64,000 nt of DNA from Diplocarpon mali (taxonomy: Eukaryota > Ascomycota > Leotiomycetes > Helotiales > Drepanopezizaceae), in the NCBI GenBank assembly GCA_024741835.1, contig JAENRP010000024.1, positions 62,001-126,000 on the forward strand, given 5' to 3'. Below the pieces are notes generated by a model, which made no database searches, had not been told where the DNA came from, and worked only from the letters and a program-made list of their open reading frames with translations. Position numbers and translations under genes: made by a program. This document shows positions 16,150 through 57,405 of this stretch, piece after piece. How positions within the stretch are numbered: the first letter of the stretch is position 1; each line of letters begins with the position of its first letter.

Positions 16150-17535
16150 ACGCAAGATTTGTTACTATAGCTAAATTATTAGAACTAATAGCTGAGATTA
16201 CCAGCTTAATTGCTAAAAGTACTCTATTGCCTGAATCACCTAATTTTAAAAGGACTGATATATAATACCTTAAACTCGAATTTAATAGTTCATCTCTTCC
16301 TCCTCCTCCTTTTCCTCCTTCTCCTTTCGACAATTCTATATATATATATATAAATAAGATATTGTTGTCTTCGGCTGCCCTTAGCCTCCCTAAGTCTTAA
16401 AAGCTTAAAGGTGCAGAGGACTATAGCTAATAGAGGAATAAGGTTTTAAACTTTGCAAAGTTAAACGCCTTGATTATATATCTCTATATAAAAGCTAGAA
16501 TATATGCTTTACTTAAGGTTGACTTATAGGACCGTTCTATTACTTTTAAGGAAAGGGATAATTAGGTTAAATAAGAAGCTAAGGAATCTTAAATAAAGCT
16601 TACTATTATACTTAATTGCAAACTAGGCCTACTAGCTTATATAAAAAGCGATAAATCTGCCTTAGATATATAGGAAGCTTTTTAAAAATAGTACGAAGGA
16701 TCTGGAATAGTGCTCGAATATAATGCTATATAGACTTATATCACTATTAAATATAATAACTTTAACTTACTTAAAGCTTATGTTATCGCCTTTAGGCTTT
16801 CTATTATTAAATTGGAAGCTCTTGACTCTGCCCCTCCTTCTTACTAGTACTTAATCATATTTATTACTAGCTATTCTAATAGATAGCCTATTTAAGTAGA
16901 TTAATAATGCTCTAACCTTCGCTTAGTTATAGCAGCTGGACGAAAATTAGAGATTACGCTTAAAGCTCTTATTAAAGATATTACTAATAAAGCTTAAGCC
17001 TTATAGAGTTTAAAAATAAATGGAACCGTTTTATATAGTAATAAATCGGCTAGTAAGCCGTATTCCTCTAATTATAAGAAGTTAGAAAACAAAGGAGGTT
17101 TTAAAGACTTAAAGAAGAGCACCTTTAGGAATACTACTACCTCTCCTAACTCCCCTTATCCTTATTATAAGTAACTAAAGCTATACTATGAGGTAGAAGA
17201 TTGCTTTGCAATTAATAAATCGAAAAGAGAGGCTTAGGAGAAGGACTTAGGGAAGAAGTACGTATTTTATCACCTTAAAGGCAAGGACGATAAGTCCTTG
17301 CTATTATTATTACCAAAAGGCAAAAAGCCTTCTAAGAAGATTCAGAAGGAAGATAAAGAGTCAGATAATGACCTCTTTAGGCATACTATGCTATTACTAA
17401 CCCTAGGGCTAATTCTCACTCGCGAGCCGGGCCTAGGACTTAATTTAGACTCCTCCCTAGGGCTAATTTCCACTCGCGGGCCGGGCCTAGGACTTAGTTC
17501 TTCTACCTCCTACTTCTTATTAAAATTGAAGAATC
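16150..17535 (+). pseudogene. Copia-C gag with two in-frame mini-palindromes
   Basis: Gag of a Ty1/copia element. The frame begins near 16150 (RFVTIAKLLELIAEITSLI), passes a Pro-rich stretch and then the typical motif KLKGAEDYSQxRNKVLNF at about 16405. A degenerate zinc knuckle lies near 17150-17215 (YYK...EVEDCFA). From 17298 to 17540 the frame is still open and contains two copies of the mini-palindrome (17416-17442, 17471-17496), read as TREPGLGLN and TRGPGLGLS, in the linker between zinc knuckle and protease. Other stops are TAA/TAG. Confidence 0.8.
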
Positions 17536-20500
17536 GTTAGCTATATAATATAAGTGCTAGTAAGCATATCTCTAATGATCTTTCTAAGTTTACTTCCTAT
17601 ATTGCTTAAGATAATCTACCCTCTTTAAGTATAGTTAATAGATCTATTTAACCTTTTAGCATTAGTACTTATAAAGTTAATGCACTTAAATCTAATAGAA
17701 AGGTATATATTCTTAAGTTAATTAATACTCTTTATATACCTTAATCACTTATCTGCTTATACTTAGGTAGTAAACTTAATAAAATCAAAGGCTTTTATTG
17801 AAATAGTAAGCTATTCCTATCTAATAAGAAGGAAATTTGCACTATTGATAATAATATATATATTAATAAGGAATAGTCTTCTACTAACTCCTTTGGTTAT
17901 ATAAGTAGATATGCTCTCCTAGCTGCTATTGAGAATAGACCTTTTGATATTAAGCTCTAGCACTATCAATTAGGCTACGCTAGCTTACAAACGGTTAGAA
18001 AGACCTAATCTACTATTACTAATATATAGATTAAGGAAATAAAATTAAGGAAGATGCGAATTTGCGCTCCTTGCGAGAAAGGCAGACCTCTTTAATATAT
18101 CCTTAAACGTTCAGCTTGCCTTTAACTTATAAAGGCACTTAATAAGCTATACGTTAATGTAGTTCATCTAAAGCCAATTAGCTTTAATAGTTATAAATAC
18201 GCCTCTATCTTTACTTGCTTAGCTATAATAGCTAGGTAGGAATAGACTTATATAAACAAATCTAATGCCTTTAAGGCAAATAAGAAGATAATCAGCCTTT
18301 TATAAACTTAGTATAATCGTATAATCAAGCGGTAGAGAACTAATAGAGGCAAGGAGTACTCTCTTATATAGATATAAATACTTATAGAAAACCTTAGTAT
18401 GATTTTAAAAGAATCTACTTTATATACGCTAGAATAAGATAGTAGATTGGAATAATCAATTTGTATATTAATAGAAAAGTTGTAAATAGCTATAATTGAC
18501 TAAAATATCTCCTCCTTTCTCTAGCCTTACCTCCTTCTTTTAATAATATATATTACTAATCTTACTGCCTTTAATATTCTAAGTGGCAAGACTCTATATA
18601 AGGTCTTTTAGGACGATATCGAGCCTAATAAGCCGCATACTCCCTTAGTTAAGCATCTTTAAGTACTAGGCTATTGCGTCTATATACTAATCGAGAAAGA
18701 AAAGCGAACTTAGAGTAATAAACTCACTTTAAGAGTAGAGGTAGGTACTCTTATTGGATTTAATAGCAAAAGTATCTATTAGATTTATATACTATCGCAA
18801 ATAGGTAAAAAGATTATTTAATTATCTTACGTTTGATTTAATAAAGACGGCCTAATTATAAAGCTATAATTAAAGGGTGATTTCACTCTTAGGCCAGGCC
18901 TGCGAGTCATTTCTTAAAATGATATTTTCACTCCTAGGCCAGGACCGCAAGTCAATTCTAACTCTTATAATTCCACTCCTAAGCCAGGACCGCGAGTCAA
19001 TTCTGATTCAAGAGAAGCTAATAAAGCTAAGCTTCTAACTCTAAGAAAGAGAGGAAGACCTCTTAGTTTAAAGAATAAGGCTTACCCTTAGCCTTTTGAG
19101 AAGAGAGCTACTTGCTTAACTTATACTCTTAGATTTAAAGCTGATAACTCTAATAATAAGGAAGCCTATTTAAGCGCCTTTTATATAGCCTTACTCGACT
19201 CTCCTTACCTAAATGACTTGAAAACAGTTGAATAAGCCCTCTCTTATACTAATGCTAATAAATGGCGATCTGCGATTAACTTTAAATACAATTCCCTTGC
19301 TTATAAGGATATATAGGTAGTAGTGAAACGCTTAGAACTCTTTAAAGATAATAGAGTACTTAGATCAAGGCTTGTCTTTAAAATAAAAAGGGACTAAAAC
19401 GGGAAAATCTCTTAATAGAAGGTTAGATTCGTTATATAAAGCTATATATAACGATAAGGTTGAGATTATAATTAGACATTTGCTAGAGTATGCAAATCTG
19501 CGGTTTAAAAGATCGCAATTGCGCTTATAGTACTATATAACTTTAAGCTAGATTAGTTTAATATTAAGATAACTTTCCTTAATTTAGAAGCTAACTCTAA
19601 TATCTATATTAAGTTACCTCTTAGATATACTTAAGATAAGGTCGTTCTTTTACCTTAAGACTACTATCTTAAGCTTCTTAAGGCCTTATATAGCTTAAAG
19701 TAATCTCTATAACTATAGTAAGAAAAGCTACGGTCTAAGCTATAAAAGCTCGATTTTCAACCTTTTGATACTAATAATTGTATATATATCAACCGCGCCT
19801 TTCGGATTCTTATTATTACCTATATTAACGACTTCCTTATAATAGCTAAGAAAGGTGATATATATAATAAGTTTAAGAGAGATCTTTGCAACCTCTTTAA
19901 AATTATAGGTAGCGAACTGGCTAACTACTTCTTAAGAGTATATATAGTTAGAGATTGATAAAATAGAATAATCTCGCTTTATTAAGACGCTTATATTAAT
20001 AAGGTTCTTAAACGTTTTTATATAATTAATTGTAAAAGCGTACTAACGCCTTTTGCTAATAGCTATAAAGTTTATATAGTTAAATTTGAAGGCTAAGCCA
20101 TTTTATAAGAAGTGAAGCTATATTAAGAGATCTATAGTTCTCTATAGTACCTTGCGCACTATACGCGTTAGGATATATTATACTATTGCTCTATTCTTAG
20201 CAAATTCCTTACTAACCCTTTACTATAATATATAGTAGCTTTAAAACGAGTTTTATAATACTTATAAAGAATGCGATTCTATTATACTACCTTCGGAAGC
20301 AAAACAACTGACCTAGAGCTTTAGAAATTACATAGCTACTACGATTCTAACTAGGCAGGTAATAGAGGAAGTAGAGCCTTATATTCTAGGGCTATCTTCT
20401 TCTTTAATAATAGCGTAATTACCGCCTCCTTTAAGCGATAGACTATTATCACTCTCTTATCTATAGAGGCAGAGTATATCGCTATATGCAAATTCGTATA

Positions 20501-20805: not shown

Positions 20806-20905
20806 ATTAAGGGGTGATTTTTTTTTGCACCTCTATTATAGGGTGATTTTTTTCGCACTTCTATTAAGGGGTGATTTTTTACTCCTAGGCCGGGCCCGCG
20901 AGTTG
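20798..20905 (+). repeat. Short tandem repeat plus mini-palindrome in Copia-C 3' end
   Basis: Three copies of a unit close to GCACCTCTATTAAGGGGTGATTTTTTT (about 27-35 bp, with length differences in the T run), followed by a mini-palindrome at 20881-20905 (ACTCCTAGGCCGGGCCCGCGAGT). The CACC...GGGGTG part of each unit can pair with itself. Confidence 0.75.
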
Positions 20906-21080: not shown

Positions 21081-21328
21081 TATTGCAGGTATGCCTATTA
21101 TATATTTATCATATAATCTATCATATAATACATTATACATATAATATATCATATGACTTGCCATATGACTTAGCGGCTTCGCTAAGAAGCCCGCTTACCT
21201 TAAATAGCTCTTAGTTAGAAGAGCTCTTATAAATCAAAAAACTCAATATCGTCGTTTGCACCTTATACTTCTTCGTGCCCTCTTCTAGTTTACTATCAAG
21301 TTTACTATCAGAGAACCTCCTTGCTACA
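21081..21328 (+). repeat. Copia-C 3' LTR, 248 bp
   Basis: Same length as 7636-7883; starts TATTGCAGGTATGCC (TG changed to TA) and ends CTCCTTGCTACA. More RIP changes than in the 5' LTR in the first 70 bp. Confidence 0.92.
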
Positions 21329-21333
21329 TAAAC
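21329..21333. repeat. Target site duplication of Copia-C (TAAAC), right
   Basis: Identical to 7631-7635. Confidence 0.9.
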
Positions 21334-23880
21334 TCCTTATTTTGCTTATTTGTCTAGCTTTACCTTAATCTCTAATGCGTTATTAGACTTAATAGCTATT
21401 AGCTTTAACTAGGTCTAGCGTTCCTTTATCACTTTCTAAGTTTCCAGCTTTTCTATAAGCTTAGATTTAGTCTTAGCGCAAATAGTCTATATCTATTAAG
21501 TAGAGTTATCTACTATTTAAGAAAACTAATTATTTCCTTTAATTAAGGTTATAAATAGTTTAGTAGTATTAATAGATATTAGCGCTAGTATCGAATCTTT
21601 TTATAAATTAAGCTTAGTTTACATCCGATTTTAAAGTTTTATTAGCTTATAAATTTAGTATATTAGGTAATCCTTTAGTACTTAGATCTTCCTTTTTAAA
21701 ATCAAGACCTTATATAGGCCCTTTAATTTCTCTAGCCTTAGATATGCGAATCTTTTATATATTAGCTAATACTTTAATAGGCTTTCGGCTTTTAATAGCT
21801 TTAGTAGCCTATTATTAGTCGATACTTTATTATCAGCGGCTAGAAAGGACTAATAATAGCAATTCGAGGTTTTACTATTTTCCAATTGCAAGCCTGGCTT
21901 AGGAGTCGTTTTTAATAAAAGTGCAAGATCTACTCGCAGTCTTAGCTTAAGAGTTATTTTTAATAAATCTGCAAAGTTCACTTATAGTCTTAGCTTAAGA
22001 GTTATTTCTGCGAATTTCATTTGCAATCTTAGCTTAAGAGTTATTATTAGCAAATCTGCAAAATCTACTTACGGTCTTAGCCTAAGAGTCATTTCTATTA
22101 AATTCACTTATAATCCTAGCTTAAGAGTCATCTTTAAGGATATATTACATTCTATCTATAGTCCTAGCTTAAGAGTCATTTTTGCGAATTTCACTTGCGA
22201 TCTTAGCTTAGGAGTCTATCTATTCTCCTTATCTTTACTTAATTGTATTAAGGCAAAGAGTGCATTTTCCTTAAAAGAATCTACTTATAGGTTTAGCCTA
22301 AGAGTCAATTTCTATAATATTACCTTTAAGATAATATAAAGTCTATCTTTAATTTTAGCCTTAAAAATCACTTTATAGTTATTATTTATAAACTATATAA
22401 ATTAATTATTAAAAACTCTTATATAATTTAACTCTATATAGATCTTATAGCTAAATAAAAGATTAATACCTAGGCTAAGTATAAAGAGAATATTTTACAA
22501 AAGGAAAGAAATGCTAGCAATATTCATCTTTACTATACCTATCGAGTTTATATATAACCTTCTATTACTAACTTTAATAAAGCGCCTTTTTATTTTAATA
22601 AGCAGGCCTTTAAATAGGTAGGGTTTATCAATTATATATGTTATATAACTAGTATTATTATACTAGTTGGATTTAAGGATCTTATAAAGATCGGCTTTTA
22701 AAATATAAGCATCTTTATTATAATTATCATTTGAATTATTAAAAGTAGATTTAAATTTAGATAACCTACTTTTATTATTAAAGGTATCTATTAAAGTTTT
22801 AGCTAAATAGCCTTTTCCTTTACCTTTCTTTAGTAGTTATAGCCTTCGGTAGGATAAGGGCAGTTTGCTTCTTAACTTCTACTTTAATTACTTTTTAATA
22901 TTAAAGCTAGCGACTATATCAATCAATTGCCTTCTAACTTTATAATTAGTAATATTATAAGTACTATTATAGAACTAGTATCCCTAATAAGCTTAAAGGC
23001 TTATCCTACGCTCCTTCCTCTTCTTAGGCTTATTATTACCTTATAACGCAGTATTTGCCAATTTAGAGCGTCTTTTAAGGTCTTACTTAATAGTTTAAAG
23101 GAAGTCGATCTTCTTATAGATCTTAAGGTTAGGTTAAACGAAAAGAGATTATTTTGCAATAGCAAACTTAAGAGGAAGGCTATTAAGTAGGAAATTAAAA
23201 AGCTGAGTTTCTTTAAAAGTTATAGCTATCCTAGGATCTATAGCTCTTACTCTCCTTCTCGCTTTACGTAATATAGATTAAGCAGAGTTTATATTTATAT
23301 TTATATCTTTATTATCTTTATCTTTTTTATATTAAAATAAAGTGATCTATTATAGTAGATGCTAGGTATTAAAAGCAGTTATCTAAGAGTATTTTACCTT
23401 TAAAGTATCTTATCTTATCTTTATATTATTATAAACTTAAATAAAATCTTAGTCTTTATCGCTTAAACCTCTATTGATCTTAAGCTTATATTTAGCTAAG
23501 GCCAGCCTATACTCCTTCTCCTTTTCTATATTTAAAATCTGCCTTTAGGATTCTTAGTTATTATCTATTAAAGCTCTTAAGCTAAGCTTATTTAATATAT
23601 TTAGCAAATCCTTAGCAGTTATATTAGCTATTAAAGTAGAAGTAGACGAATTAGTAAAGGGAGTATAAGGGGCTATTCTTGCGTATTTAATAAGTGTCTT
23701 TTAAATTGTTATTTCGATGCCTTTGCTCTTAAAGTAAAGCTTTAAATTATCGAACTATTATTGCTAGTTCTTTTAAAAGAATTAGAGGTCTTTAGGTCTG
23801 GTATTTCAATTAGAATCGGAAGCTATTGCTATTTCAAATAGAATTGCGTTAAAATCAAATAAATTAAATAGTTGAGGGCA
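21334..23880 (-). pseudogene. Copia-B gag, protease and first part of integrase
   Basis: First half of the Copia-B polyprotein, read from about 23880 downwards. Gag about 23880-22640 has Lys/Glu-rich helical stretches (for example LLNILNKLSLRALIDNN near 23600). Protease about 22620-22330 shows the copia pattern after a damaged active site: LFKGLLIKIKRRFIKVSNRRLY, then INLLFSYKIY. Next is the nine-unit palindrome array (21888-22314), still in frame, then GAG-pre-integrase (YKRFAYLRLEKLKGLYKVLIL, family W/H..RxGH) and the integrase core with AKTKSKLIEKLETQKV and IKSNNALE (family KTKSE..., RSDNAxE) at about 21350-21480. It continues at 7630 across Copia-C. Stops are TAA/TAG. Confidence 0.82.
21888..22314 (-). 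repeat. Nine-unit in-frame array of the mini-palindrome in Copia-B
   Basis: Nine copies of the mini-palindrome spaced 45-75 bp, at about 21888, 21931, 21979, 22018, 22067, 22104, 22154, 22190 and 22288. On the minus strand each reads as T(L/P)(K/R)LxLQV or TPKPGLQL followed by a short variable spacer such as NFADLLK or EFNRN. All units are in the frame that joins protease to integrase. The units have diverged by C/T and G/A changes. Confidence 0.85.
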
Positions 23881-24429: not shown

Positions 24430-25988
24430 CCCTTACTTAGACCTTACTCTAATTGACCTATAGTTAGGAAAATAATAACTATCCTTTTGCGCTGATCTAA
24501 CTCTTAGGTATCTCTTTAAATTAAAAACAATTAATTAATAGCAACCTCTATTGAAATCACTAAACTCCACTTATAAGGTAGGACTAGGAGTCAATTTTCC
24601 TAAAAGCATTCCTTTATAAGACTATATAACTTAACTCGCGGTCTAGGCCTAAGAGTCGATTTAAAAAACTTTCCTTTATAAGACTATATGACCTAACTCG
24701 TAGGGCGGGCCTAGGAGTTATCCTTAAGCCTATTAAGCTCCTATTATCTTTTGCAACCTTAGTATATCTTTAAACGCTTTAAACTTTATAACTGTCTTTA
24801 ATAGCTTTATAAATCCATCTGCTACTATTCGATTAGTTAGGATATAGGTAATTAATAACTTATTCTTTATAATAAGGTTGTAAATAAAGTAGTAGGTAAT
24901 ATCGATATATTTTGATCGCTTATGCAAGTATAGATTCTTTATAAATGTAATCGCTTTTATATTATCTACTTAAAGATTAATACAATTCCTATCTTATTTA
25001 ATATACTTAGTAAAACCTATATCTTTTAAAACTTAAGTAATCTATAATCCTTATTTGCAATTTGATAATATTAATATATATTTAGCCTTAGTACTTGCAA
25101 TAGCTATTGATTTTTACTTCTTACTTCCTTATAATATAGGTTTGCCATATAGTACTACTACGCTTTTAGATATACTTTTCTAACCTTTTATATTTGCCTA
25201 ATTAGAATCGGTATATACCTTAAGCTTTATACTTATATATTTCATTAATTTATATCTTACCTTCTATATAATTATCAATTGAAGGTACCTTTTAAGTCGC
25301 TTGACTACATTCTTATATTAAATCGTTAGATCCTTTAAGTTTTGACTAAATTACTTAATAATAAAGGCGATATTTAGTCTTATATATACTATAGTATATA
25401 TAATTGCTCTAATATCCTATTAGTACTTCTTCAGATCTCCTCTTTGCTTATTTTTATTAATAGGCTTTAACTTATTATACTTTCCTTTAATTGGAATATA
25501 CTTTAGCTTAAAGTTAGAAGCATAAGTGGAAAGTCCTATTTGGTCTAGGATCTTTTTAATATATTACTTTTATTTTAACTAGAGTTCTTAAGTAAAGCGG
25601 TTCCTTATAACGCAGATACTAAGGATCTTATAAATTCCCCTTAGATCCTTAGTATTAAAACGTTTTTAAATAGTTATAAAGAACTAATCTAATTGAGTAG
25701 TTGTTTTTATAGCTATAGTAATATTATTAATATATAGTAGCAACTTGATTCTACACTTAATATAGGTAAATAGATAAGGGTTAGCTAAGCTTTAAATGAA
25801 TCCTATTTCTACTAAAGCAGAGCTATATAAGAGGTTCTAATTATAGGCTGATTATTTAAGCCTATAGATACTGCGGAGTATATAAAGAGAGTGGCTAGCG
25901 CATATAAGAATACCGTTAGGTTAAGAGAGAAAAATCCATTCTTTTATAATTGCTTTAGTAAATGCATTTTTAATATTATACTATTATA
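24430..25988 (-). pseudogene. Copia-B copy 2: 3' stretch, RNase H and part of RT
   Basis: Second minus-strand Copia-B, matching 4784-6330. It has three mini-palindromes (24567-24593, 24632-24659, 24693-24720), the still open RNase H C-terminus (24733-24927, YIDITYYFIYNLIIKNK then TNRIVADGFIKLLK, closer to the family VADGLTKPL than the first copy), and part of RT. The copy is cut at 25988 by the end repeat of element X, so the rest of pol, gag and its 5' LTR are missing. Confidence 0.85.
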
Positions 25989-26392: not shown

Positions 26393-26475
26393 NNNNNNNN
26401 NNNNNNNNNNNNNNNNNNNNNNNNNNNNNNNNNNNNNNNNNNNNNNNNNNNNNNNNNNNNNNNNNNNNNNNNNNN
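26393..26475. other. Assembly gap (83 N)
   Basis: Run of N. The related copy at 48239-48292 also has a gap at the same place. Confidence 0.99.
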
Positions 26476-27514
26476 TATATGCGCTTTTACCTATGAGCCG
26501 GGCCTAGGAGTCAGAAAACGAAACTAGTAAAACAAATAAGCTATAGAATCGTAAAAACAATTAAAAATAGTACTAACTTAGATATCAATTTTCCTTAGTT
26601 CTCTTTAAAGGATAAGGAGACCTATTACTAGATAATACTCTCTTTATAAAGTGCCTACTTCTTCTTAATAGCTTGCTATTAGTATTAGAGGAACTAGGTC
26701 TTAGTATAATAGGCGTCTCTATGCTTCTTGCTAATGCTAGTATAGTATAACGACTTTTACTAATAAGGAGAGAAACTTATATTATAGTATTATTATTATC
26801 TTTATCTTTATTATTATTATTATCCTTTGGAGATTCGTTAGTAGTAGAAGGGGAGGCGATAGGTAATTTAATAGATAATACTTCCTTCTCTTTACCCTTA
26901 GTCAAATCAAGTCGTAGGCCAGGCCTAAGAGTTATATCAAGGGTTATAGTATAGGGTTTCTTAGTGCTATACTTCTTAAGAAGTATCGTCTTATCAATTA
27001 TATTATTAACTTTAATATTATTATTATTACCTTTTATCTTAGTCTACGATTTATCTTTATATAGCTATAATTCTAGTTATTAAATCATCTTCTACATATT
27101 TGAAAAATCTTTAAAGAGTTTTTACTTATATCTCTTCAGATATATTATTAGTTGTATTATATCTTTAGAAAACAATTCCTTTACTATTATCACTACTAAT
27201 AGGTTATTCTACGATCTTTTACCTATAAGGGCCTTTGATAATAGACCACCTTTCGTTATACTAAGGGTTATATGGAACTTTGCAAAAGATTCTCCTACTA
27301 CGCCCTATCTTACTATACTTGATCTCTTTATATTAAGTGAGTTGATAAGAAAATCTTCTAAGTTAGTGCTATTCTTAAGTGAATTATTGCTAACAACTTC
27401 TATATAGTTATTGCTAATAGTAAGAAAACCTCCTTTTCTAAGCTCTCTATTAGAGTCCAAGTCTACGAAAGTACTTTATCTTATAAATATAGAGAATAGA
27501 GCGGTCTTATTAGA

Positions 27515-27519
27515 AATGT
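27515..27519. repeat. Target site duplication of Copia-A (AATGT), left
   Basis: AATGT before the LTR at 27520; repeated at 34713-34717. Confidence 0.9.
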
Positions 27520-33200: not shown

Positions 33201-33329
33201 AGGTCTAATCGAGAAGCTAGCATTTTAAATGCTTTACAATCCTTTTATATCTCCTTTATAATAGTAAGTAGGAAGGAAGCGTAAGATAGGGTTCAATTTT
33301 CCTTATACTAATATATAAGAAGGCTTAAA

Positions 33330-34250
33330 ACCAACTCCCTTAGATAATCAGAACCTCTAATAGCTTTGCGAATAATATAAGGGCGCGTCCCTATTGAGAA
33401 GTAACCGACTCCTTTAATAGCATAGCTTTAAGAGCCGCCTGGGGAGCAACGCTAGAAGTAATAATAGGAGTAGCCGCAGGAGCCTCAAAAGCCTCTGCGA
33501 GGCGGGCGGCAAGGCTAAGAGGTGTTATAATCGGCGGCAGCAAGAGCTTTTGACTAACTAGTTCTAAGAAGCTATTAGCTATAGTATAAGAAAGCTTATA
33601 ATTAATATACCTTTTAATAATACTACCTCCTTTATCTCTCTCTAGCGCGCCTTTTAAAGCTCCTCTCTTACCTTCCTTTTAGTAGCAGTAAGGCTTTAAA
33701 CTGTTTATTAGTGGTAAACCACTTAAAGGGAGCTTGAGAACGTACCGCGGAGTCACTGTTGTTCTCCTTTAATAAGAATATATAATCTTCTTACGCCTTT
33801 AAGGCGCCGATAGGAAGCTCCTAGCATGCGTGGCCTCCTTTCGTATAACGAAAGCAGCGTATTCCTACTATACTATTAAAGTATACGCCAGCCGACTTCC
33901 TAGCCAAGAAGCTCTAAACGCACCCCTTATATAGTATATTTCTTATCAGCCCCTACTCTAGCTTACGATAAGAGGAGGGAGCTGCAAAGGGGACCGCCGG
34001 TATTTTAGGAACCACGGCTTAAGGGGTGGTAAAGAGGGAAGAAGGCGCACTCCCTCTTAAGGGTATTACTATATTAAACGTCTTAAGCGCGTTATCATCC
34101 TCCTACTATCTACTGCGCTAAGAAGCTCTAAGCTATATTTAAGTATAACAACTTTACTATAAGTCTTTAGCAGGAGTAAAGGAGCATAATTAAGAAGCTT
34201 ATAGTAGTAGCCTTAGTAGGGCGCTCCTTAAAGTTGTTATTGCTATTCTC
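33330..34250 (-). pseudogene. Antisense ORF between Copia-A pol and 3' LTR
   Basis: Between the end of pol and the 3' LTR (1.3 kb) the plus strand has no good frame, but the minus strand does. From about 34100 to a TGA at 33485-33487 one frame reads through with only TAA/TAG stops, with EDDNALKTFNIVIPLRG, PKIPAVPFAAPSSYRK, then a Cys/His cluster RCFRYTKGGHACQELP at about 33800 and a basic stretch RRARERQRRQ at about 33630. A shifted frame continues to about 33330 with an Ala-rich, Gag-like end. The cluster suggests nucleic-acid binding. Copia-D has a comparable antisense ORF in the same place. Function unknown; ends approximate. Confidence 0.55.
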
Positions 34251-34540: not shown

Positions 34541-34712
34541 TATTGCGCTATAAGGAGCCTTAGGCACTAAGGCATCTAAGGACTGGCTTATATAATATAC
34601 TCCTGAAGTGGCCATAAAGCACTTCTATAAAGGGAGCTCAGGTATATAGTTAGAGTAGAATTTTACAAGCTTCTGCCACTACTGAGAATCCACCTCTAAA
34701 TACAGCACGACA
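34541..34712 (+). repeat. Copia-A 3' LTR, 172 bp
   Basis: Starts TATTGCGCTATAAGG (TG to TA) after the purine run AAGGGGTG and ends TACAGCACGACA. Confidence 0.93.
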
Positions 34713-34717
34713 AATGT
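34713..34717. repeat. Target site duplication of Copia-A (AATGT), right
   Basis: Identical to 27515-27519. Confidence 0.9.
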
Positions 34718-36913
34718 ACTTATTTAATAGTATTCTATCCTTAGTATTTAATTCTTTCTACTATGCTACGCTTTATGCTAGATTAAGTGAGATCTATTGA
34801 GCATTTTTAAGGTAGTAGGGTATAAGACTCGATAATTTATATGATTTTTCCTAAATTGCAAATTCTTTAGTAGATTGTTTTACTATAGGAATTATATGAT
34901 AGTCAATAGTTCTGCTATTAAGGGAGCTGACCTGCGAGCCGGGCCTAGGAGTCAATTTTATAAACCTGGTATTAGTATTAATTTTAGTAGTAACAATTCT
35001 CAAATAGTAGTCAATCCTTATAAACTATGTAGACTTAGGATAAGCTACTAGCTTATATAAAGAATTATAGTAGGTTAGTAGAGCATTAAGATATAATTTA
35101 TAATGTATCTTTAATATCTATTATATTAAGCTATAAGTTATATTATAAAGGAAGGCGGAAGGTAGCGATGATTTCTTATCTAAGGTGCGGAAATGGTATT
35201 TATATATTTCTATCTCTTTTTATGCTAAAGTCATAAACGAACTCTTCTTGCGAATACTATAGCCTTATATGCGCACTATACCTAAGAATGCGCAGCTAAA
35301 CAGTTTAAGTATATTTAAAAAGCCTTTATTATAAAGTGATATAAAGTTATCTAAGGTTAGTATAGACTTATATTAAGCGGGAGTCTAAGAGATATTATAG
35401 AACAATTTTAAAGCCTTAGGTGCTACTTTAAATTTCGCAAAACCTAATGATATATCTTTCTTAATCTAGTTAGCTATTCTACTACTAGCAGCTATAATTG
35501 TATGATTTCTAAGATATAATAAGAATAGAGTTAGGTTAGGTGCAGTATAAAATTTATATATATTAAAGGAAACTTATTTATTAATTAGAGACGCTATTGC
35601 CAATCTATAGTATTATATATATTATTATTTATAAAGAGTATAAAATTTTTCGAAATTGAAGTCTTTAAACATTCCTATTATAAATCTACTTAATTATGTC
35701 TTTATCTCTAGCGTTATTACAATCTTAAATCTATTGCTATATTATAAAATTATCTTAATATTAAGGGGGACTTTATAGCACTTTATAAAGATGGTTATTA
35801 TGCTATTATCTGATTTTTCTTTAAGAATATAGTAATTACCTTTTAGCTTTTTATACTTAATGAAAAACTATATGATATTATCGGCAGAAAATCCATCTTC
35901 TTAAAGCTTTATAATCTATTTAACAGCTTTTGCCATTGCTTCTTATGCCAGCAAAACTTCTCCTCAACCTTCCTTTTTTAAACGCTTTATTATTGACTTA
36001 TAGAATTTCAGAATAAATTTTTATAGGTCCTTAGGGAAGGATTGCATAATATTAGCGATATCCTTCTTAATATTATTAAAAATCTCTAATACGTTAGTGA
36101 CTATACTAGCCTTTTTATTTAATAAATCTTCTTTTAAGTCTATAACGTTATGTATATTAACCCGCGGGCCGGGCTCGCGAGTCGACTTTAATATTACTAG
36201 TATTTTAAGTGTTTAAAGTATCTTTAAAGATAGTGAATTAAATTCATTTGAGTCAGATAGTCGGGGATCGCAATAGTCAATTATTTAAGCTTTAGGTATT
36301 ATAGGTACTTTTTGCTTAAGGGCCTTATTATTATATGCTAATTCGACTTATAGGCTGGGCCTACGAGTCAAATTTTCTTTATTAGTTAGTTCTACTAGGA
36401 GTGGCAACATTTTCTAAGCGGTAGGAACTATAAACTCCTATCTCTCTATCTTATTATCGAAGTAGTTTATAGTATACTTAGTAAGATAGATCATCTTTTC
36501 TTTTGCAATAAGTAAACTGTATTAAGACTATTATAGGCTAAGGGTATTTAAAATTGTCTGATCTAAGAGGGCTAAATTATTATACTACGCAGGATCGTCT
36601 TTTATAGTCTAAATAGTAGAGTATATAATAGTGCTTAAGAACTTTATAAATTTTCTACTTCTTATATTATTACCTTAGAGTTTCTTTATACCTTCTTAGA
36701 TAGTAAAGTGATTTAATACTTGTATAGCCTTTGCTATAGGTTGGTATATTTTAAAAATTCTGCCTAGTCCTTATAAGGCGCTATTAGCAGTAATATCGTT
36801 TATAAAGTAGGTCTGGAAGAGTGTACTATAGGTATTACTTATAAATTGTAATAATCTTTTTATATACTTATTCTTCTTATCCCGGTTTTTTTAAAACAAA
36901 TCAACTAATATAA

Positions 36914-44300: not shown

Positions 44301-44313
44301 TAAAGTGCTTATA

Positions 44314-45349: not shown

Positions 45350-47559
45350 CAACTTCTAATTCGCAATCTCTTTAAATGGTTTTCAAAAGGAGGGTAGACT
45401 CGATTCTCTAGGCTTGCGTTGACTTAATTATCAGTTCTATCATCACTTCGGAGTCTTCTTCTCTTACGTTAGTTCTTATTTCTTAGCGATTTCTCAGCTT
45501 TAGGGACCTCTTTTAAAGGATCTTCTATTAATACCTTTAGATTTAGTAATTAAGGTTTATTCGAAATATCTTATAGGCTTAAGCTAGCTAAGTCCAACCT
45601 TACTTACAGGCTGGGCTTACAAGTTAGTCTTAGCGTTTTTAAGCTTAAGGGTAAAAATAGGGGATTAGTTTTTAAATTAGGGTCTAATACTATACTAGCG
45701 TCTTAGTTTATCTCTTTTCCGAATTTTCTTATAATAATGCTTTTATTAATTAGTATATTAGGTTCTTAGATAGTATTTACTTTATCGCATTATCCTTAAG
45801 ACTTAAGTCTATAAAGAAGCGACTTAGTATTTATAATATTCATTTAGGCTTTAATAAGGGCGTTAAAGAGCTTTTGATTATATTTTATAAAGTAGATTTT
45901 CAATTTGTTTTTATTAAGAAGAAACAACTCTTATACTTCGATTATAATTAATAGATCTATTTAAAAGCGTCGACTAATAATGGCTTTAAAGAGGCTACTA
46001 TAGTTCTTAAGATGAAAAGCTGCTTTAAAAGGTATAGTAGTTCTACTTGCGTTAATCTATCGAAGTATTAGAAGTTGCTTTAAAGTAGAGATTAAAAAGA
46101 TAAAATCGGAGATTCGAGTCTTATTTTCTAAGGTGTTCTTATTATAAATAATTATATAGTTATTATAAAAGGCTATAAAACTACTAATCCTATAAGAATT
46201 ATTCAAAAGCATTTTAAGAAGGTATTCCTATCTTATTATTACTATAATTGGATTGCTATTATTAGTAATAGGTCGTAAGATCTCCTTTTGCTTTAATTTT
46301 ATAATTATTTAAGTTAATTAAGATTTTGAACCAAGTGCTTAAGAAGTCTATCGACTTATCTTCTTTATAGATAGAGTAAGTTTTATATTCGACTAAGAGC
46401 CGACCTACCTATTAAGGCTTTTAAAAGCTGGCTCTTATTCGATTAATAGGATCTGATAATCTAAGACTTACTTTCTAATAAAATTAACTTGCAGTTAAGA
46501 CTGCGAGTGAAAATCGGAATTTCTTTATTAATAGTACTTGCATCTCTCTTTATTAAAATGACTTAATTATAAAGACTAAGGCTAATCAATTAGGAAGGTT
46601 TAGGGTAGGCTATAAGCTAATAGGTTCCTTTACCTCTTACTATTATAGCTAAGAGGTAGAGTTTATAATGCATTCGAAGGACTTATTAAATAAGATTGAA
46701 TATTATATTATAAAGAAAATAAGAAGGTATAAAGGTTGCACTATCTATAGGATAGAAGTAATAAAGATATATCTTTACTTCTTATCTTATAATAGAGAGG
46801 AATATACTTATAAAAGTACTATTATTAGTAGTAAAATTGTCGGTTAAGAAGCGGTATCTAAAGGGTTTAGGCATTACAATTGACCCTTCTTCCTTTATTT
46901 CCTCCTACTATTTATTACTTAATAATATTAATAAAAAGGAATTATTCTATTTAATCGGCTCTAACGCTTTTAAGGCTTTAGGATTAGTCTTAAATTTTAT
47001 AGCACTTAAAGATGCCTCTATTATTAATAGGTTAGATTTGCGTATCTTTAAAGAGATAAAGAATTGATTATTAAAGTAGATTAGAAAAAGATTAATATCT
47101 TTTATTATATAGAGAAGTTTGCAGTATTTAATAGTTTTATTAATATTAAAGCCTTTATAATTAAGACTATAGTAAATCGAAAGAAAGCAAATATAAAGGT
47201 CGCAAAGTCTTCTCCCTTCGATTCTTACGTTAAGAAGATACTATCAAAAGCGAGTTTTTATTATAAAGGACATTTAAATATTATATCATTCTTTAAGCTT
47301 AAGGTTAAGAATAACCGATTGAGGCATATTACTATAATTATAAATATCTTAATCAATAGATTCCTCTATGCGTTCTCTTTCTTATAAAATAAAATAGTCT
47401 CGCTTAGCATTTAAGAGATTAGGTTTTTAACTTCTATAATTATTAAAGAATTGAATAATATCTATAAGGGCGAATTTGTCTAGGATAAGCTATTAAATTT
47501 ATCTAACGGCTCTTTTAATTATCTTTAGAGTAATAGGAATAGGGTCTTCCCTTATATTA
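45350..47559 (-). pseudogene. Gene X1, copy 1 (N-terminal part lost)
   Basis: C-terminal two thirds of X1, cut at 47559 by a Copia-D fragment. Matches 52361 to about 54555. Landmarks on the minus strand: KADPKALKALEPIK (about 46980), MPKPFRYRFLTDNF (about 46860), YKLYLLAIIVRGKG (about 46650), then a mini-palindrome at about 46488-46510. In this copy one base is missing inside the palindrome compared with copy 2, which shifts the frame; downstream the frame continues as LDYQILLIEQ. Near the C-terminus is a second palindrome (about 45612) followed by the basic stretch NQRKRRRLRSDD, possibly a nuclear localisation signal. A 76-codon plus-strand ORF at 46837 is a shadow. Confidence 0.6.
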
Positions 47560-48238: not shown

Positions 48239-48292
48239 NNNNNNNNNNNNNNNNNNNNNNNNNNNNNNNNNNNNNNNNNNNNNNNNNNNNNN
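48239..48292. other. Assembly gap (54 N)
   Basis: Run of N directly after an A/T palindrome; same place in the element as the gap at 26393. Confidence 0.99.
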
Positions 48293-48394
48293 TATATGCT
48301 TTTCACCTATAGGCCAGGCCCAGGAGTTAGAAAACGAAATTAGTAAAATAAATACATAAGCTATAGAATTGTAAAAACAATTAAAAATAGAACT

Positions 48395-51300
48395 AACCTA
48401 AGTGTTAGTTTTCCTTAGTTCTCTTTAAAAGGCAGGGAGAACTATTATTAAATAATACTCTCTTCGCCGAACGACCACTTCTTCTTATAGCATTGCTATT
48501 AGTATTTGATAAGATAGGTCTTAGTATGGCAAGAGCTTTAGTAGTTTGGGCAGATGCTAGTATACTTTAGCAGCTTCTACTAATAGGGAAAGAGACTTAT
48601 ATAGTAGCATTATTATTATTATTATTATTATTATCCTTAAGGGAATTGTTAGTAATAGAGGAGGAGGAGGCGGGAGATTCTATAGATACTACTTCCTTAG
48701 CCTTGCCCTTTGCTAAATCAAGTTGCAGGTCGGGCCTAAGAGTCATATCAGGTGTCTTTATATAGGGTTTCTTAGTACTATACTTCTTAAATAGTATCGT
48801 CTTATTAATTATATTATTAGCTTTGATATTATTATTAGAGCCTCTTATCTTAGTCTATAACTTATCTTTGTATAGTTGCAGCTTTAGCTATTGAACTAGC
48901 TTTTAAGTATTAATAAAATCTTTAAAAAGTTCTTATTTATACTTCTTCAAATATGCTATAAGCTAAGTTATATCTTTTGCAAATAAATCCTTTATAGTTA
49001 TCACTACTAATAGGTTGCTTTAAGGTCTCTTTCCTATAAGAGCCTCCGATAGAGGGCTACCTTTTATTATACTAAGGGTTATACGAAACTTAGCAGACGA
49101 TTTACCTGCAATATTTTATCTCGCAGGTTAGGGTCGCTTTATATTAATAGAGTTAATGACAAAATCCTTTAGGTCGGTGCTGTTCTTAAGTGCTCTATTT
49201 CCAACTACCTTAATATAGTTATTGCTAATTATTAAAAAACCGCCTTTGCTAGGTTCCCGTTTAGACTTAAGGTTAACGAATATGCCTTATCTTATAAATA
49301 CCGAAAATGGGATAGTCTTATTGGAAATATATTCCTTTAAGGGCGTTCTTTATTTAATACTTAGATCTTTTTATTAACTAGCGCTTTATACAAGGTTTAT
49401 CAAGACCTATTAAGCATTTTTAGGCCTAAGTAGTATAAGGATTAATAACTTATACGACTTTTCCTATATTGCAAATTGTCTAATGGACTGCTTAACTACT
49501 AGAATTATATAGTAATCGATAGTCCTATTATTAAGTATAGTGACCTGCGAGCTAGGCCCAGGAGTCAATCTAACGAATCTCGTATTAGCGTTAATTCTAA
49601 TGGAAACTACTTTCGTATAGTAGTCAACTCCTATAAACTATACTAGCTTAGGGTATATTACTAGCTTATATAAAGAATTATAATAAGTTAGCAGAGCACT
49701 TAAATATAATCTATAATGCATTCTTAGCGTTTGTTATATTAGACTATAAGTTATATTATAAAGAAATGCGGATAGAGGTACTAGTTTCTTATTAGATACT
49801 TAAAAATGATATCTATACATTTCTAATTCTTCTTATACTAATGCTAAAAATGAAGTCTTTATATAAGAACTATAACTATATATACGTACAGCACTTAAGA
49901 AAGCGTAGCTAAACAATTTAGGCATATTTAAAAACCCTTTGCTATAGAGTGATATTAGGTTATTGCTAGCTAGTATAGCATTATATTAAGCGGGAGTCCA
50001 GGCGATATTATAGAATAATTTTAAAGCTTTAGGCTCTATCTTAAACTTAGCGAAACCTAATAATATATCTTTCTTAACTTGGCTTGCTATTCTATTGCCA
50101 ATGGCCATAATTGTATAATTCCCTAAGTGTAGTAAAAATAGCTTTAGGTTAAGGGTAGTATAAAATTTATAGATATTAGATGATATATCTTTATTATTAA
50201 GGCCTATTATTGCTAGCCTATAGTACTGCGCGTATTATCATTTATAAAGGGCGCAGAATTTATTAAAATTAAAGTCCTCGAATATTCCTATTACAAATTT
50301 GAAGAGTCTTATTTTCATTTCTAGTATTACTATAATCTTAAACCTATTGCTATGCTATAGTATTATCTTAATATTAAAGGGAACTTGATAGCATTCTATA
50401 GAGACGATAGTTATACTATCTTTTGACTTTTCTTTAAGAATATAGTAGTTACTATTCAATTTCTTATAGTCGATAAAGAACTGTATAATATTATTTATAG
50501 AGAATTTGTCTTACTATAACTTTATAATCTATTTGATAGCCCTTGCTATTCCCTCTTATACTAATAAAACTTCTCCCCGACCTTCTTTCTTTAAACGTTT
50601 TATTATTAACTTATAGAATTTTAAAACGAATTTTTATAAGTCCTTAAGGAAGGATTGCATAATATTAGTAATATCTTTCTTATTATTATTAAAAATCTCT
50701 AATACATTAGGGATAGTATTATTTTCTTTATCTAACATTTTATTATCTAAGTCTATATTATTATATATATTGACCCGCGGGCTAGGCTCGCGAGTCAATT
50801 TCTTTATTACTAGTATTTAAGGTATTTAGGGCATTTCTAAGGACGGCGATTCAAACTCATTTAAGTCTGATGAATAAGGGTTATAATAGTTAGCAATTTG
50901 TATTCTTAGTATTATAGGCACCTTATGCTTAGGGACCTCCTCCTTATATAGTACTTCTACCTGTAGGCCGGGCCTACGAGTCAAATCTTCCTCGTTAGTC
51001 TATTCTGCCGGGGGTAGTAGCAGCTTTAAAGCGGCAGATACAATAAATTCCTATCTCTCTAACTTATTATTAAAGAAGTTTATTATATACTTAGTTAGGT
51101 AAATCATCTTTTCTTTTATAATAAGCAGTCTGTATTATAATTGTTAAAGGCCGAGGGTATTTAAAACAGTTTGGTTAGGAAGTGCGAAATTGTTATACTA
51201 TAAAGGATTATCTTTTATAGTTTGAATAGTAGAGTATATAATAGTGCTTAAGAACCCTACGAACTTTCTAATTCTTATACTATTTCTTTAGAGTTTCTTT

Positions 51301-51885
51301 ATACCCTCTTATATTATAAAATGGTTTAATACCTATATGGCCTTTGCTATAGGTTAGTAGGTTTCAAAGATTTTACCAAGCCCTTATAAGGCGTTATTAG
51401 CGGTAATATCATTTATAAAGTGACTCTGGAAAAGTATGCCTTAGGTGCCTTTAGTAAATTGTCTTAGCCTCTTTATGCATTTATCTTTCTTATCTTAGTT
51501 CTTTTGAAACAAATCCATTAAGTTAGCATACCCTTAGTACTTTTGTAAAAATTTCTTATAGTCGATACCTTTAATCTTGAGTTTATTATTAAGGAAGTCA
51601 TTAAACCCTAGAAATCCTTCTTTTATAGTAGAAATTCTATAATTAAGTATATTAATAGATGAGTTCAAGAATACCTATTGTTCTATTTCGCCTAATGTTT
51701 TATAAGTGGTTACTATATCTTCTAATAATCTTAGAGCTTTTCTATCCTAAGAAAATCCTCCTTTTAATATTAGTTTATTATTAGATATTGCTAAAGACTT
51801 GCTACCTAAGGTAATAAATGATATATTCTTCTTAAGTATAACCTTTTTGCTTATGCTAAGGGGGGCTATAATGAATTATTTGACA
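48395..51885 (-). pseudogene. Gene X2, copy 2
   Basis: Uninterrupted counterpart of X2 copy 1, about 1,160 codons, with only TAA/TAG stops in most of the frame read from 51885 downwards. The region matches 44527-44895, 34718-36913 and 26577-27514 of copy 1 base by base, apart from C/T and G/A changes. Mini-palindromes lie at about 48307 (just past the gene end), 48727, 49550, 50773 and 50963, at the same places as in copy 1, so they were there before the two copies separated. A (TTA)n run at 48607-48633 encodes an Asn tract near the C-terminus. Function unknown; paralogue of X1. Confidence 0.6.
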
Positions 51886-52360: not shown

Positions 52361-55300
52361 AATTATAATTCGCAATCTCTCCAAATGGTTTTCAAAGGGG
52401 AAAGTAGATTATAATTCTTTAAATTAAGTCGATTCAATATTAGTTCTATTATTACTTCGGAGTCTTCTTCTCTTGCATTAGTTCTCATTTCTTAGCGATT
52501 TCTTAGCTTTAAGGACCTCTTTTAAAGGATCTTCTATTAGTATCCTTAGATTTGGTGACTGAGGTTTATTTAAACTATCTTATAGGCTTAAGCTAGCTAA
52601 GTCCAACCTTACTCGCGGGCCTAGCTTATAAGTCAGTCTTAGCGTTTCTAAGCTTAAGGATAAAAATAGGAGATTGGTTCCTAAATTAGGGTCTAATATT
52701 ATACTAGCGTTTTAATTTATCTCTTTTCCGAATTTTCTTATAATAATACCTTTATCAATTAGTGCATTAGGCTTTTAAATAGCATTTACTTTATTGCACT
52801 ATCCTTAAGACTTAAGTCTATAAAGAAGCGACTTAGTATTTATAACGTTTGTTTAGGCTTTAATAAGGGCGTTAAAGAACTTCTAATTATATTCTATAAG
52901 GTGGATTTTCAATTTGTCTTTATTAAGAAGAAATAACTCTTATACTTCGATTATAACCGATAGATCTATTTAAGAGCGTTGATTAATAATAGCTTTAAAA
53001 AGGCTGCTGCAGTTCTTAAGATGAAAAGCTGCCTTAAAAGGTGCAGTAGTTCTACTTGCGTTAATCTATTAAAGTACTAGAGGTTATTTTAAAGTAGAGA
53101 TTAAAAAGATAAGATTAGAGATTTAAATCTTATTTTCTAAGGTGTTCTTATTATAGACGGCTATATAGTTGTTATAAAAGGCTATAAAACTACTAGTCTT
53201 ATAAGAATTGTCTAAAAGCATTTTAAAGAGGTATTCCTATTTTATTATTACTATAATTAGATTGCTATTATTAGTAATAGGTTGCAAGATCTCCTTTCGC
53301 TTCAATTTTGCAATTATTTAAACTAATTGAGATTTTGAACTAAGTGCTTAAGAAGTCTATCGACTTATCTTTTTTGCAAATAGAGTGAGTTTTATATTCG
53401 ACTAAGAGCTGACCTACCTATTAAGGCTTTTAGAAGCTGGCCCTTATTCGATTAATAGGATCTAATAATCTAAGACTTGCTTTCTAATAAAATTGACCTG
53501 CGGGCTAGGACTATAAGTGAAAATCGGAATTTCTTTATTAATAGTACTTGTATCTCTCTTTATTAAAATAATTTAATTATAAAGACTAAGGCTAATCAAT
53601 TAAAGAGGTTTAAGGTAGGCTATAAGCTAATAGGTTCCTTTACTTCTTGCTATTATAGTTAAGAGGTAGAGTCTATAGTATATTTAAAGGACTTATTAAA
53701 TAAGACTAAATATTATATTATAAAGAAAATAAGAAGGTATAGGGGTCGCGCTATCTATAGGGCAAAAGTGATAAAGATATATCTCTACTTCTTATCTTAT
53801 AATAAAGAGGAATATACCTATAAAAGTACTATTATTAGTAGTAAAATTGTCGGTTAAGAAGCGGTATCTAAAGGGTTTAGGCATTATAATTAACCCTTCT
53901 TCCTCTATTTCCTCCTGCTATTTATTACTTAATAATATTAATAAAAAGGAATTATTCTATTTAATCGGCTCTAACGCTTTTAAGGCTTTAGGATCGGCCT
54001 TAAATTTTATAGTACTTAAAGATGCTTCTATTATTAATAAGTTAGATTTGCGTATCTTTAAAGAGATAAAGAATTGATTATTAAAGTAGATTAGAAAAAG
54101 ATCGATATCTTCTACTATATAAAGAAGTTTAAGGTATTTAATAGTTTCGTTAATATCAAAGCCTTTATAATTAAGACTATAGTAAACTAAAAGAGAGCGA
54201 ATATAAAGGTCGCAAAGTCTTCTCTCTTCGATTCTTATACTAAGAAGATACTGTCGAAAGCGAGTTTTTATTATAAAGGATACTTGAATATTATATCGTT
54301 CTTTAAGCTCAAGGTTAAGAATAACCGATTAAGGCATATTGCTATAATTACAAATGTCTTAATTAATAGATTCCTCTTCGTATTCTCTTTCTTATAAGAT
54401 AAAATAGTTTCGCTTAGTATCTAAGAGACTAGCTTTTTAACTTCTATAATTATTAAAGAATTGAATAATATCTATAGGGGTGAACTTATCTAAGATAAGC
54501 TATTGAATCTATTTAATAGCTCTTTTAATTATCTTTAGAATAGTAGGAATAAGGTCTTCCCTTGTATTATTATTTTTAAAGCAGTTATATATAAATATAA
54601 AGAAGTTAAGAACTAGCTCTTTTAAGTTATTAGGAAAAGAGTCTAAATAAGCGTGCAATCCTTTAATTTCAAATTGTAAATTAGCTAAAGTGGCTATTAA
54701 ACGATCTATCCTTTTTAAAAGTCGAGTTAAAATTGGTCGTTTAACTAAAGGAAAGTCTTTTAAAGATTCCGAAAATTCCAAAGAGGCTACACTAAGCGTT
54801 TAAGCAGTTTGTTTAGCAGCAGTTTTTAGAATTATTTTAGTAAAAGGCAGGTTAGGTCTAGTTTTAAAATTCTTATTTCTAACTCTTAGTTTAAGACCGC
54901 GAGTTAAATTATATAGTTTAGCACTTATTATATTTTTAAACTAAAAAGCGAATTTTAAGGCAAGCTTAATTATAAATAACTAATTCCCTTTTTTATTATT
55001 AAAGAAATCTTATTTAAACCTTAGTATAAAAGTCTAGTTCTCTTTTAAAATAAGCAAATTATAAGTAGAAGCGCAAAGCCTTAGTATATTGATAATAGTA
55101 CTATTAGGTAGGGTAATATCTATAGCTTAATTTGATCTTTTTATAGACTTATCAGCTGCTATAAATATTATATTAAATAGGCTTATAAATCTGCGACTGC
55201 GAATTCGATTGCCTTAGAATTTTACTACTCCTTTTTAAATAATAAAGAAATTAAGAATCTGAATAGCTCTAGCGGTAGGAGTATTTTCCTTAAGAATTTT

Positions 55301-55999: not shown

Positions 56000-57405
56000 T
56001 TATTAAAAATGTAAAAATAAGGATTTTAAGAAGGTAGGACTATTAATAGGCTAGGAAATCGTTTAATATTCCTATTTACATTCTTTGGATATTTTAGGAA
56101 TAATAACTTAGGGTTGCAATTAATTGGGTATTATAATATTTTTCACTTGTAGGACTGGCTTATAGGTTAAGTTGGAAAAATCTTAATCTTTATTTAAAGG
56201 TTCAAAATTGCTTATATTGCTATTGGTTCCTATAGAAGATTCGGAGGTTGTATCAATTTCTAATTTATCTTTTAAAGGGAATAAGGTCTAGTTGCGTTAA
56301 TAAAAGCGCTTTAGTCGATTAGTTGCAAAGGTTCCTTTAATATCAACTTTATTAAGTTCTTAAAGAGAATAGTATCCCTTTTCTTTTTACTTAGATTTAA
56401 CCTTAAATAGATTAAGCTATTAATAGTTGAGTTTAGTATTAGCTGATATATTAATACTTCTTATAATGTTATAGACTAGGATAAGATCATCTTTTCGAAT
56501 AGGGTGCGTTTTAAGTACTTTAGAAGCAGCCTATGCTTCTTTAGCTTTTTCCTAATATTGTTTCTTTTGCAAAATGATTTTCTCTATATCTATATTTTAA
56601 AGCTTAAGTTATTAGCATCTTATTATAAGTAAATTGGAATAGTTTTAAATTTGACTATAGTTAAACAATCTTTAAATAGGCTATTAGGATTTAAGAGGGA
56701 GCTATGCCTCTCTACTATAGATAAGGAAAAATGGTATAACTTTAATTGGTTTATAGATTATCATTTAATAAGTAAAGAGTATTTTATAAAAGTGTTTTAT
56801 TTAATTCTTAAATCTTCTATAGATAACTTTAGATAATCTATTAAGAATGTCGCAATATCCTTGCTTTACTACTCTATTAGCTTTCGAGTTATATACTAAG
56901 ATCTGAACCCATTTGATATTATATTTTCGTAAAAAAGCTTTAACTATTCCTTTATTTTTAAAGCCTCTATTAATAGTTAGTTTGCTAAAAAGTCTATAGC
57001 AATAGACTACGTCTTCTTAAAGGAACTTTACAATGGCTTTAGAGTTAGCAGACTTTAAAGGTCGTCCTTTAAGCTATCTTAATAGGTCTTCCTTTATTAG
57101 AATAAAATATATAATCCTATTTTCAATTGTTAGTACTTATATAATATTAAGACTGACTTTATAGAAAAGGCCTAATGGCCAGGTTGGGAATAGGAGATTC
57201 TCTTTATAACTAGGTTTTTGTTTTTAATAGGGGACGCAACTTTTTATAAAGGCTTTATAGTCCTTAAAAGAACCCTTTTAAAAGAATTTCCTTAAGAGTC
57301 AGTAATAGGTGGACTTAGCTCCTTAATAGCCAGTTTCCTTATAAATATCTTAGATAGCCTTAGCCTTTAGTTTTTTATTGTTTAAGCAGAGTATAACGGC
57401 TGCAC
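56000..57405 (-). pseudogene. Gypsy-3 integrase and C-terminal tail, truncated
   Basis: Minus-strand end of a gypsy-type pol, read from 57405 down. HHCC zinc-binding region (YKETGYQGAKSTYY, SCVPYQKQKP, with His and Cys changed to Tyr), then the retroviral-type integrase core: FPTWPLGLFYKV, KEDLLRQLKGRPLKSANSKAIVKFLQEDV at about 57090-57000, KLTINRGFKNKGIVKAFL, and YNIKWVQILVYNSKANRVVKQG. Next is a C-terminal domain with RKDDLILVYN (about 56490), GYYSLQELNKVDIKGTFATNRLKRFY at about 56350 and a Ser/Thr-rich tail with one in-frame mini-palindrome (56146-56169, TYKPVLQV). It is distinct from Gypsy-1 and Gypsy-2. RT and gag parts are missing beyond 57405. Stops TAA/TAG plus one TGA. Confidence 0.85.

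Follow-up and report, generated by a model that had tools for sequence, protein, structure and literature searches.

The subject of this analysis is a short, GC-rich palindrome that recurs many times in a 64,000-nucleotide stretch of the Diplocarpon mali genome (contig JAENRP010000024.1, positions 62,001 to 126,000), the whole of which is referred to here as the window. The window is AT-rich (31.6% GC), contains only two stop-to-stop frames of at least 150 codons, and displays a strong signature of repeat-induced point mutation (RIP; TA/AT of 1.53 and (CA+TG)/(AC+GT) of 0.56). It houses a Ty1/copia element at 16.6-20.8 kb, an open reading frame (ORF) at 21860-22339 that is the longest of the window, and two unclassified elements, X1 and X2, with two copies of each. 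One and the same DNA sequence is found in many flanking contexts, namely in copia, in gypsy and in a probably coding unclassified element.

The 23-nt core of the palindrome (ACTCNYRGGCCNGGCCYRNGAGT) conforms to the motif ACTC-NYR-GGCC-N-GGCC-YRN-GAGT, an odd-centred palindrome derived from 37 distinct exact sites, in which the YR positions are occupied by CG, TG, CA or TA, a range that fits the loss of CpG through RIP or deamination. Just beyond the core, one representative from each of the 25 contexts described below reveals a border, RAWTYN-ACTC, that adds weak information (0.82 bits at the second base outside the core, 0.26-0.44 at four others and 0.05 at one), so that the unit may extend to approximately 35 nt, or the border may instead reflect a preference for insertion sites. 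Sites were scored over the 16 fixed letters of the motif, with C>T and G>A each counting 0.3. By this measure 42 non-overlapping places in the window score at least 9, and 31 score at least 11, against a mean of 0.4 expected at the higher threshold when the window was resampled 20 times under a first-order Markov model. Three of the 42 (7723, 21168 and 23166) look like chance matches; those at 7723 and 21168 are an identical 23-mer, matching the motif weakly, in two copies of a copia long terminal repeat, and are probably unrelated to the palindrome. The genome-wide search suggested by the original prediction, an earlier annotation of this DNA made from its letters, returned 315 exact places in 49.4 Mb (676 contigs), a number that rose to 2,597 with C>T and G>A tolerated, and a reversed, non-complemented control pattern had no genome match in the exact and tolerant searches alike. 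In a viral sequence collection the pattern matched once, inside a contig of 70% GC, which is taken as chance, its expectation not having been computed.

These figures bear on one possible dismissal of the palindrome, that GC-rich, CpA-poor stretches outlast the AT mutation of repeats under RIP and come to look alike. The strong RIP of the window and the scarcity of CpA in the core would suit such an artefact, but it is barely credible in light of the resampling, in which sequences with the same dinucleotide frequencies gave the 0.4 sites set against 31 above. Moreover, annotated proteins of Diplocarpon coronariae contain the encoded peptide, and an exact site lies in a little-mutated repeat (L022). 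Chance and RIP artefact were both rejected on the strength of the resampling and the control patterns.

The palindromes of the copia element in the window all lie on the forward strand. Two occupy the linker between gag and protease (17418..17440, score 13.3; 17472..17494, score 14.0), each starting at a codon in the frame aligned to the Rhynchosporium copia P0121. The linker between integrase and reverse transcriptase (RT) holds two or three sites, in the window an in-frame array of three with a 45-nt period (18885..18997, starts 18885, 18930 and 18975, scores 16.0, 13.3 and 13.3). A last site (20881..20903, score 16.0) lies 74 nt beyond the P0121-aligned end of pol and is present in 13 of 13 flank-matched copies, most of them retrieved through this very palindrome. 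A less mutated copy of the element (L033) is found elsewhere in the genome, and its linker sites likewise begin at a codon. The ORF at 21860-22339 contains, in frame and on the same strand, a decayed array of nine palindromes (21884..22305, starts 21884, 21932, 21980, 22019, 22067, 22106, 22154, 22193 and 22283) with steps of 39, 48 or 90 nt. In the window copy of the element with this array, a 13.7-kb block with TAAAC on both sides (7630-7635, 21328-21333, 22713-22718), likely the 5-nt target duplication of a copia, splits the sequence, and the copia insertion point of L033 is unoccupied in the window copy of this element.

A Ty3/gypsy element at another locus (L030) passes the Pfam cut-offs for RVT_1, RNase H and H2C2, narrowly misses those for rve and SH3_Tf2-1, and matches a chromodomain weakly. 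Two arrays are read in the frame of these domains: one, with a 45-nt step, separates RNase H from integrase, and the other, with the same step, separates gag from RT. The annotated gypsy proteins at 78-79% identity belong to D. coronariae.

X1 and X2 probably code for protein, as suggested by their stop counts. The sole match of a six-frame Pfam search of their regions was the RT of a neighbouring copia, and a PDB search with a single copy of X2 gave no relative. A stretch of 2.9 kb in X2 has an identical length (2909) in L027, L028 and L031. All of the sites within X1 and X2 lie on the reverse strand. In X2 copy 1 these are 26910..26932 (score 14.0; context 7, in phase 0 of the least-stop frame), 34930..34952 (12.6; in a phase common with the other X2 sites), 36160..36182 (13.3) and 36346..36368 (14.6), and in copy 2 they are 48721..48743 (12.6), 49543..49565 (11.9; with an aligned site in X1), 50773..50795 (12.6) and 50959..50981 (13.3). 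X1 copy 1 has a single site at 45602..45624 (13.2), and copy 2 has one at 52611..52633 (13.9; in a phase common with the two other sites of that copy) and two decayed ones at 53496..53518 (9.9; aligned to the X2 site at 49543) and 54882..54904 (9.9).

The remaining palindromes are listed without strand. Two lie near the X2 copies, at 26489..26511 (12.6), 13 nt past a stretch of Ns near copy 1, and at 48305..48327 (13.3), 12 nt past another near copy 2. The window has three such N stretches (26393-26475, 48239-48292 and 63341-63447), two of which stop 12-13 nt short of a palindrome, and others occur in L006, L027, L028, L031, L047 and L063. Three further arrays, at 3601..3749 (starts 3601, 3662 and 3727, steps of 61 and 65 nt), 4923..5074 (starts 4923, 4988 and 5052, steps of 65 and 64 nt) and 24569..24718 (starts 24569, 24634 and 24696, steps of 65 and 62 nt), have no clearly open frame, and a decayed palindrome (56145..56167, 9.9) lies in what the original prediction called the tail of Gypsy-3.

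The positions named in that prediction were largely recovered, 17 of 18 re-scored ones having a match of at least 9.9 within approximately 32 nt, where the nine-site array is represented among the 18 by its two end positions only. The exception is 46488 in X1, at which the best score is only 6.5 and a gap of 1 nt interrupts the aligned copy. Sites at 3601, 3662, 3727, 4923, 4988, 5052, 24569, 24634, 24696, 26489 and 48305 are additions to its list. Its statement that the palindrome occurs in both orientations holds in the window, as does its statement that Copia-A, Copia-D and Gypsy-1 are free of it; in 10800-14200, 28000-33500 and 38000-41000, presumed to be these elements, the best score is 8.6. 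A gypsy at 60000-63700 is also without the palindrome, its best score being at most 8.6. The description of the hosts as several unrelated elements is sound for copia and gypsy, which are clearly unrelated, but is somewhat overstated for X1 and X2, which are related at approximately 57% nucleotide identity (regions 26681-27517, 34712-36787, 45726-47204, 48501-51400 and 53460-54640).

Over the whole sample, 160 sites scoring at least 11 resolve into 25 register-locked contexts. Transposon-like repeats, for the most part mutated by RIP, house these sampled sites. All 34 short loci chosen by eye out of the lists of exact matches look like repeat contexts, two of them (L051 and L052) being assigned through nothing but a stretch common to both. 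A Pfam match to an aspartyl protease (22.3 bits against a cut-off of 19.9) stands approximately 1 kb away from the little-mutated repeat of L022 (C12:228803 region); two palindromes lie 1009 nt apart in this repeat, as they do in L024 and L025, and with that distance the two sites cannot share one frame. At L041, a methionine-synthase frame 94% identical to that of Drepanopeziza brunnea lies approximately 3.3 kb from one site. Together with the gypsy proteins of D. coronariae, it points to a host within the Leotiomycetes near these two species.

A further property of the palindrome is its codon phase. Wherever a frame in the window has direct support, at 14 sites out of 14, the palindrome begins at a codon: five of these sites lie in the copia linkers, where the support comes from the alignment to P0121, and nine in the ORF at 21860-22339. 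The four X2 sites tested share one phase (4/4), as do the three of X1 copy 2 (3/3). Where phase was judged from stop counts in the flanks, with copies of the motif masked, 18 of the 25 contexts have the palindrome in phase 0 of the frame with the fewest stops (binomial p 9e-5 against the one third expected by chance, if contexts are independent), as do 13 of the 16 with a clear frame (p 1.2e-4). Lengths between fixed anchors tell the same story, being a multiple of three in 9 of 9 distinct copies of the copia gag/protease linker and in 8 of 8 of the integrase/RT linker, as against 6 of 13 for the site past pol (longest segment per copy, the left anchor being repetitive). Frame keeping is real, as had been predicted, at sites with a supported frame (the copia and gypsy linkers and the ORF at 21860-22339), and the predicted position in linkers is likewise seen between gag and protease and between integrase and RT in copia, and between gag and RT and between RNase H and integrase in gypsy. 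The palindrome is not restricted to genes: the site at 20881 falls outside the pol frame and in no clearly open frame, and both it and the arrays at 3601-3749, 4923-5074 and 24569-24718 with their steps of 61-65 nt look non-coding. Because the palindrome also occurs in such DNA, selection on the coding sites is the simplest cause of frame keeping.

A fixed codon phase would also be expected if the repeat were a conserved or convergent linker peptide (TPxPGPRV) belonging to one shared protein domain. In D. coronariae, the gypsy proteins P0151, P0152 and P0269 each contain two octapeptides of this kind (TPGPGPRV, TRGPGPRV and TPGPGPRA) in the linker between RNase H and integrase. An octapeptide pattern, composed after hits had been seen, was counted 8 times across 5 proteins out of 120 gypsy hits, against none in 20 shuffles and none in the reversed proteins, which also speaks for this reading. 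It is, however, absent from the other 115 gypsy proteins and from all 30 copia hits, and was not found in 120 methionine synthases. The same RNase H/integrase linker is without the octapeptide in P0153, P0154 (59% identity), P0155 and five more distant aligned proteins, and the peptide is absent at that linker from the two gypsies of the window, which are 30-35% identical to P0151. Related peptides, STREPGPRV and TTRDPGPPV, are present in P0155 and P0153 respectively, in a different gypsy linker. Neither linker of P0121 holds an octapeptide of this kind. A shared domain is further contradicted by the different peptides encoded in the two orientations and by the different linkers of unrelated proteins in which they lie, and by palindromes in apparently non-coding DNA, above all 20881 if it is non-coding, as its frame and lengths indicate. 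A shared linker peptide is thus very improbable, and a single ancient domain was rejected in view of the copia, gypsy and X2 linkers together with the sites that look non-coding. In sum, the resampling and controls, the unrelated linkers, the sites that look non-coding and the relatives without the peptide at the RNase H/integrase linker render chance, RIP artefact and a single shared domain all unlikely.

The tandem arrays invite a different explanation, which we consider the main rival albeit an unlikely one: the repeat would be a coding minisatellite, composed of palindrome and spacer, that is no insertion element and has been passed between retrotransposons by recombination, gene conversion or RNA template switching, with the palindromic form merely easing exchange. 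The 45-nt step is common to the copia integrase/RT array and both gypsy linker arrays, the number of units differs among copies, and by eye the spacers at 21884-22305 resemble those in the gag array of gypsy (TGCAAA-TCG). Many contexts, however, contain single palindromes with unrelated flanks, as in X2, X1 and the 3' site of copia, and flank information beyond the border is weak across contexts. Other arrays also have other periods, of 61-65 nt or of 39 and 48 nt.

Alternatively, transposons may have accumulated the palindrome as a DNA motif bound by a protein, whether an anti-silencing factor comparable to VANC or one acting at a silencing or recombination site, a next rival that we regard as distinctly improbable. 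Dyad symmetry would suit a dimeric zinc-cluster protein, and we know of no protein that binds the palindrome. Besides this symmetry, the tandem clustering of sites and their confinement to repeat contexts in the sample are what a binding motif might show, and the target motifs of VANC proteins are described as multiplying likewise as tandem repeats (PMC5735166). The palindrome, in contrast, is found across superfamilies of elements, not in a single family, and sits in coding frames, and the copia integrase/RT linker largely keeps its peptide even where GGCC has become GGACC.

The explanation towards which we lean is that, in this fungal lineage, a short palindromic insert came to be dispersed among several transposon families at many positions, with selection preserving the frame and tandem expansion adding units. 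Mobility, as proposed in the original prediction, is something we infer from the presence of one DNA sequence in both Ty1/copia and Ty3/gypsy elements, from the fixed codon phase, and from its absence at the gypsy linker in relatives; the proposal is thus supported in part. Several observations weigh against dispersal. Comparison with other element copies revealed no precise pair of empty and filled sites, the differences consisting of whole array units and one 15-nt internal deletion, and no target-site duplication was recognised at palindrome sites among the copies compared. The X2 site at 36346..36368 is filled in 7 of 7 places matched by flank pattern, and this together with the want of empty sites indicates that the sites are old within families; if they arose by insertion, this took place before each family amplified. 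Most sampled loci were retrieved through exact palindrome matches, so that conservation within families is over-estimated. Three of the 16 clear-frame contexts (15, 18 and 20) are out of phase 0, the stop-count test of phase is indirect, and contexts from one element are not independent. The integrase/RT linker of P0121 holds TRDPGIT, possibly a decayed copy, whereby absence in that copia relative may reflect decay. Finally, only the perfect form folds well, giving a strong hairpin in DNA (-13 kcal/mol, z of -5.2), while the consensus of the original prediction (z +0.6) and three copies taken from the window (z +0.3, -1.4 and -0.5) are at the level of shuffled sequences.

Under dispersal, single copies would have inserted as DNA or via reverse transcription. 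The hairpin of the perfect form would offer a plausible substrate for template switching or repair, and the preferred route to new sites would be hairpin-assisted template switching during reverse transcription, or else break repair. For as long as the host element remained active, selection would have purged copies out of frame or in structured domains, and those surviving in flexible linkers would encode harmless octapeptides such as TPRPGPRV or TREPGPRV and multiply along with their host. Arrays, which differ in unit number between copies, may then have grown by slippage, often in 45-nt steps, and the copies would afterwards have decayed under RIP. If the palindrome moves, it would rank among the smallest dispersing DNAs of a nuclear genome, a parasite of parasites, and would provide a direct handle on the in-frame entry of new peptide segments at dozens of fungal retrotransposon sites. 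Even if it spread by recombination alone, it would mark the exchange of sequence between copia and gypsy.

Among the matches listed from the open literature, which leaves most subscription journals outside, no title or abstract describes such an element in a nuclear genome, and the word 'palindrom' is absent from the main texts of PMC11527701 and PMC5628827. Compared with a miniature inverted-repeat transposable element, which has terminal inverted repeats, a target-site duplication and a matching transposase, the repeat is a palindrome alone, with no target duplication recognised. The VANC target motifs of VANDAL transposons resemble it as short motifs tandemly multiplied within transposons, but each VANC is reported to act on particular VANDAL families, and the main text of that report never uses 'palindrom' (PMC5735166). 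PARCEL repeats are described as tandem coding repeats with dyad symmetry, tied to mobile elements in some taxa (PMC2996958), but encode a 25-residue amphipathic domain in place of the 15-residue unit with its linker octapeptide found here. Closer in size and composition are the mitochondrial GC clusters, such as yeast GC42, described as short, GC-rich, many-copy palindromes that are thought to be mobile (PMC4478555, PMC7218506), for which hairpin elements of similar kind in Neurospora and Allomyces are cited in the same papers. GC clusters, however, are mitochondrial and mostly intergenic, with flanking AG or ACT duplications in yeast, whereas the palindrome here is nuclear and often coding. 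A mitochondrial location is excluded, the sites lying on contigs that reach 560 kb and contain copia and gypsy elements mutated by RIP. A COX1 search meant to test a mitochondrial source gave no match in the assembly.

The nearest parallel lies in the Rickettsia palindromic elements (RPEs) and the protein-coding palindromes of Wolbachia and Methanocaldococcus, which are reported both between genes and in frame within genes, typically in non-structured protein segments (PMC2229807, PMC2996958). Like RPEs, the palindrome is a many-copy palindromic repeat, with its 315 exact and 2,597 tolerant places, and it occupies both in-frame genic sites and sites judged non-coding by frame and lengths. RPEs, in contrast, are given as 105-146 bp in length, against a 23-nt core or approximately 35 nt with the weak border, and are bacterial and resident in cellular genes, whereas the palindrome is nuclear, fungal and, in the sample, confined to transposon-like repeats. 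Because the length of RPEs and the mitochondrial location of GC clusters are both at variance with it, the palindrome would belong to neither class and appears to work most like an RPE. It is possible, and we advance this tentatively, that it represents the first nuclear eukaryotic counterpart of these elements: a selfish coding palindrome of approximately 23-35 nt that parasitises transposons, crosses their superfamilies, and keeps to one codon phase in which either orientation encodes a harmless, flexible octapeptide.

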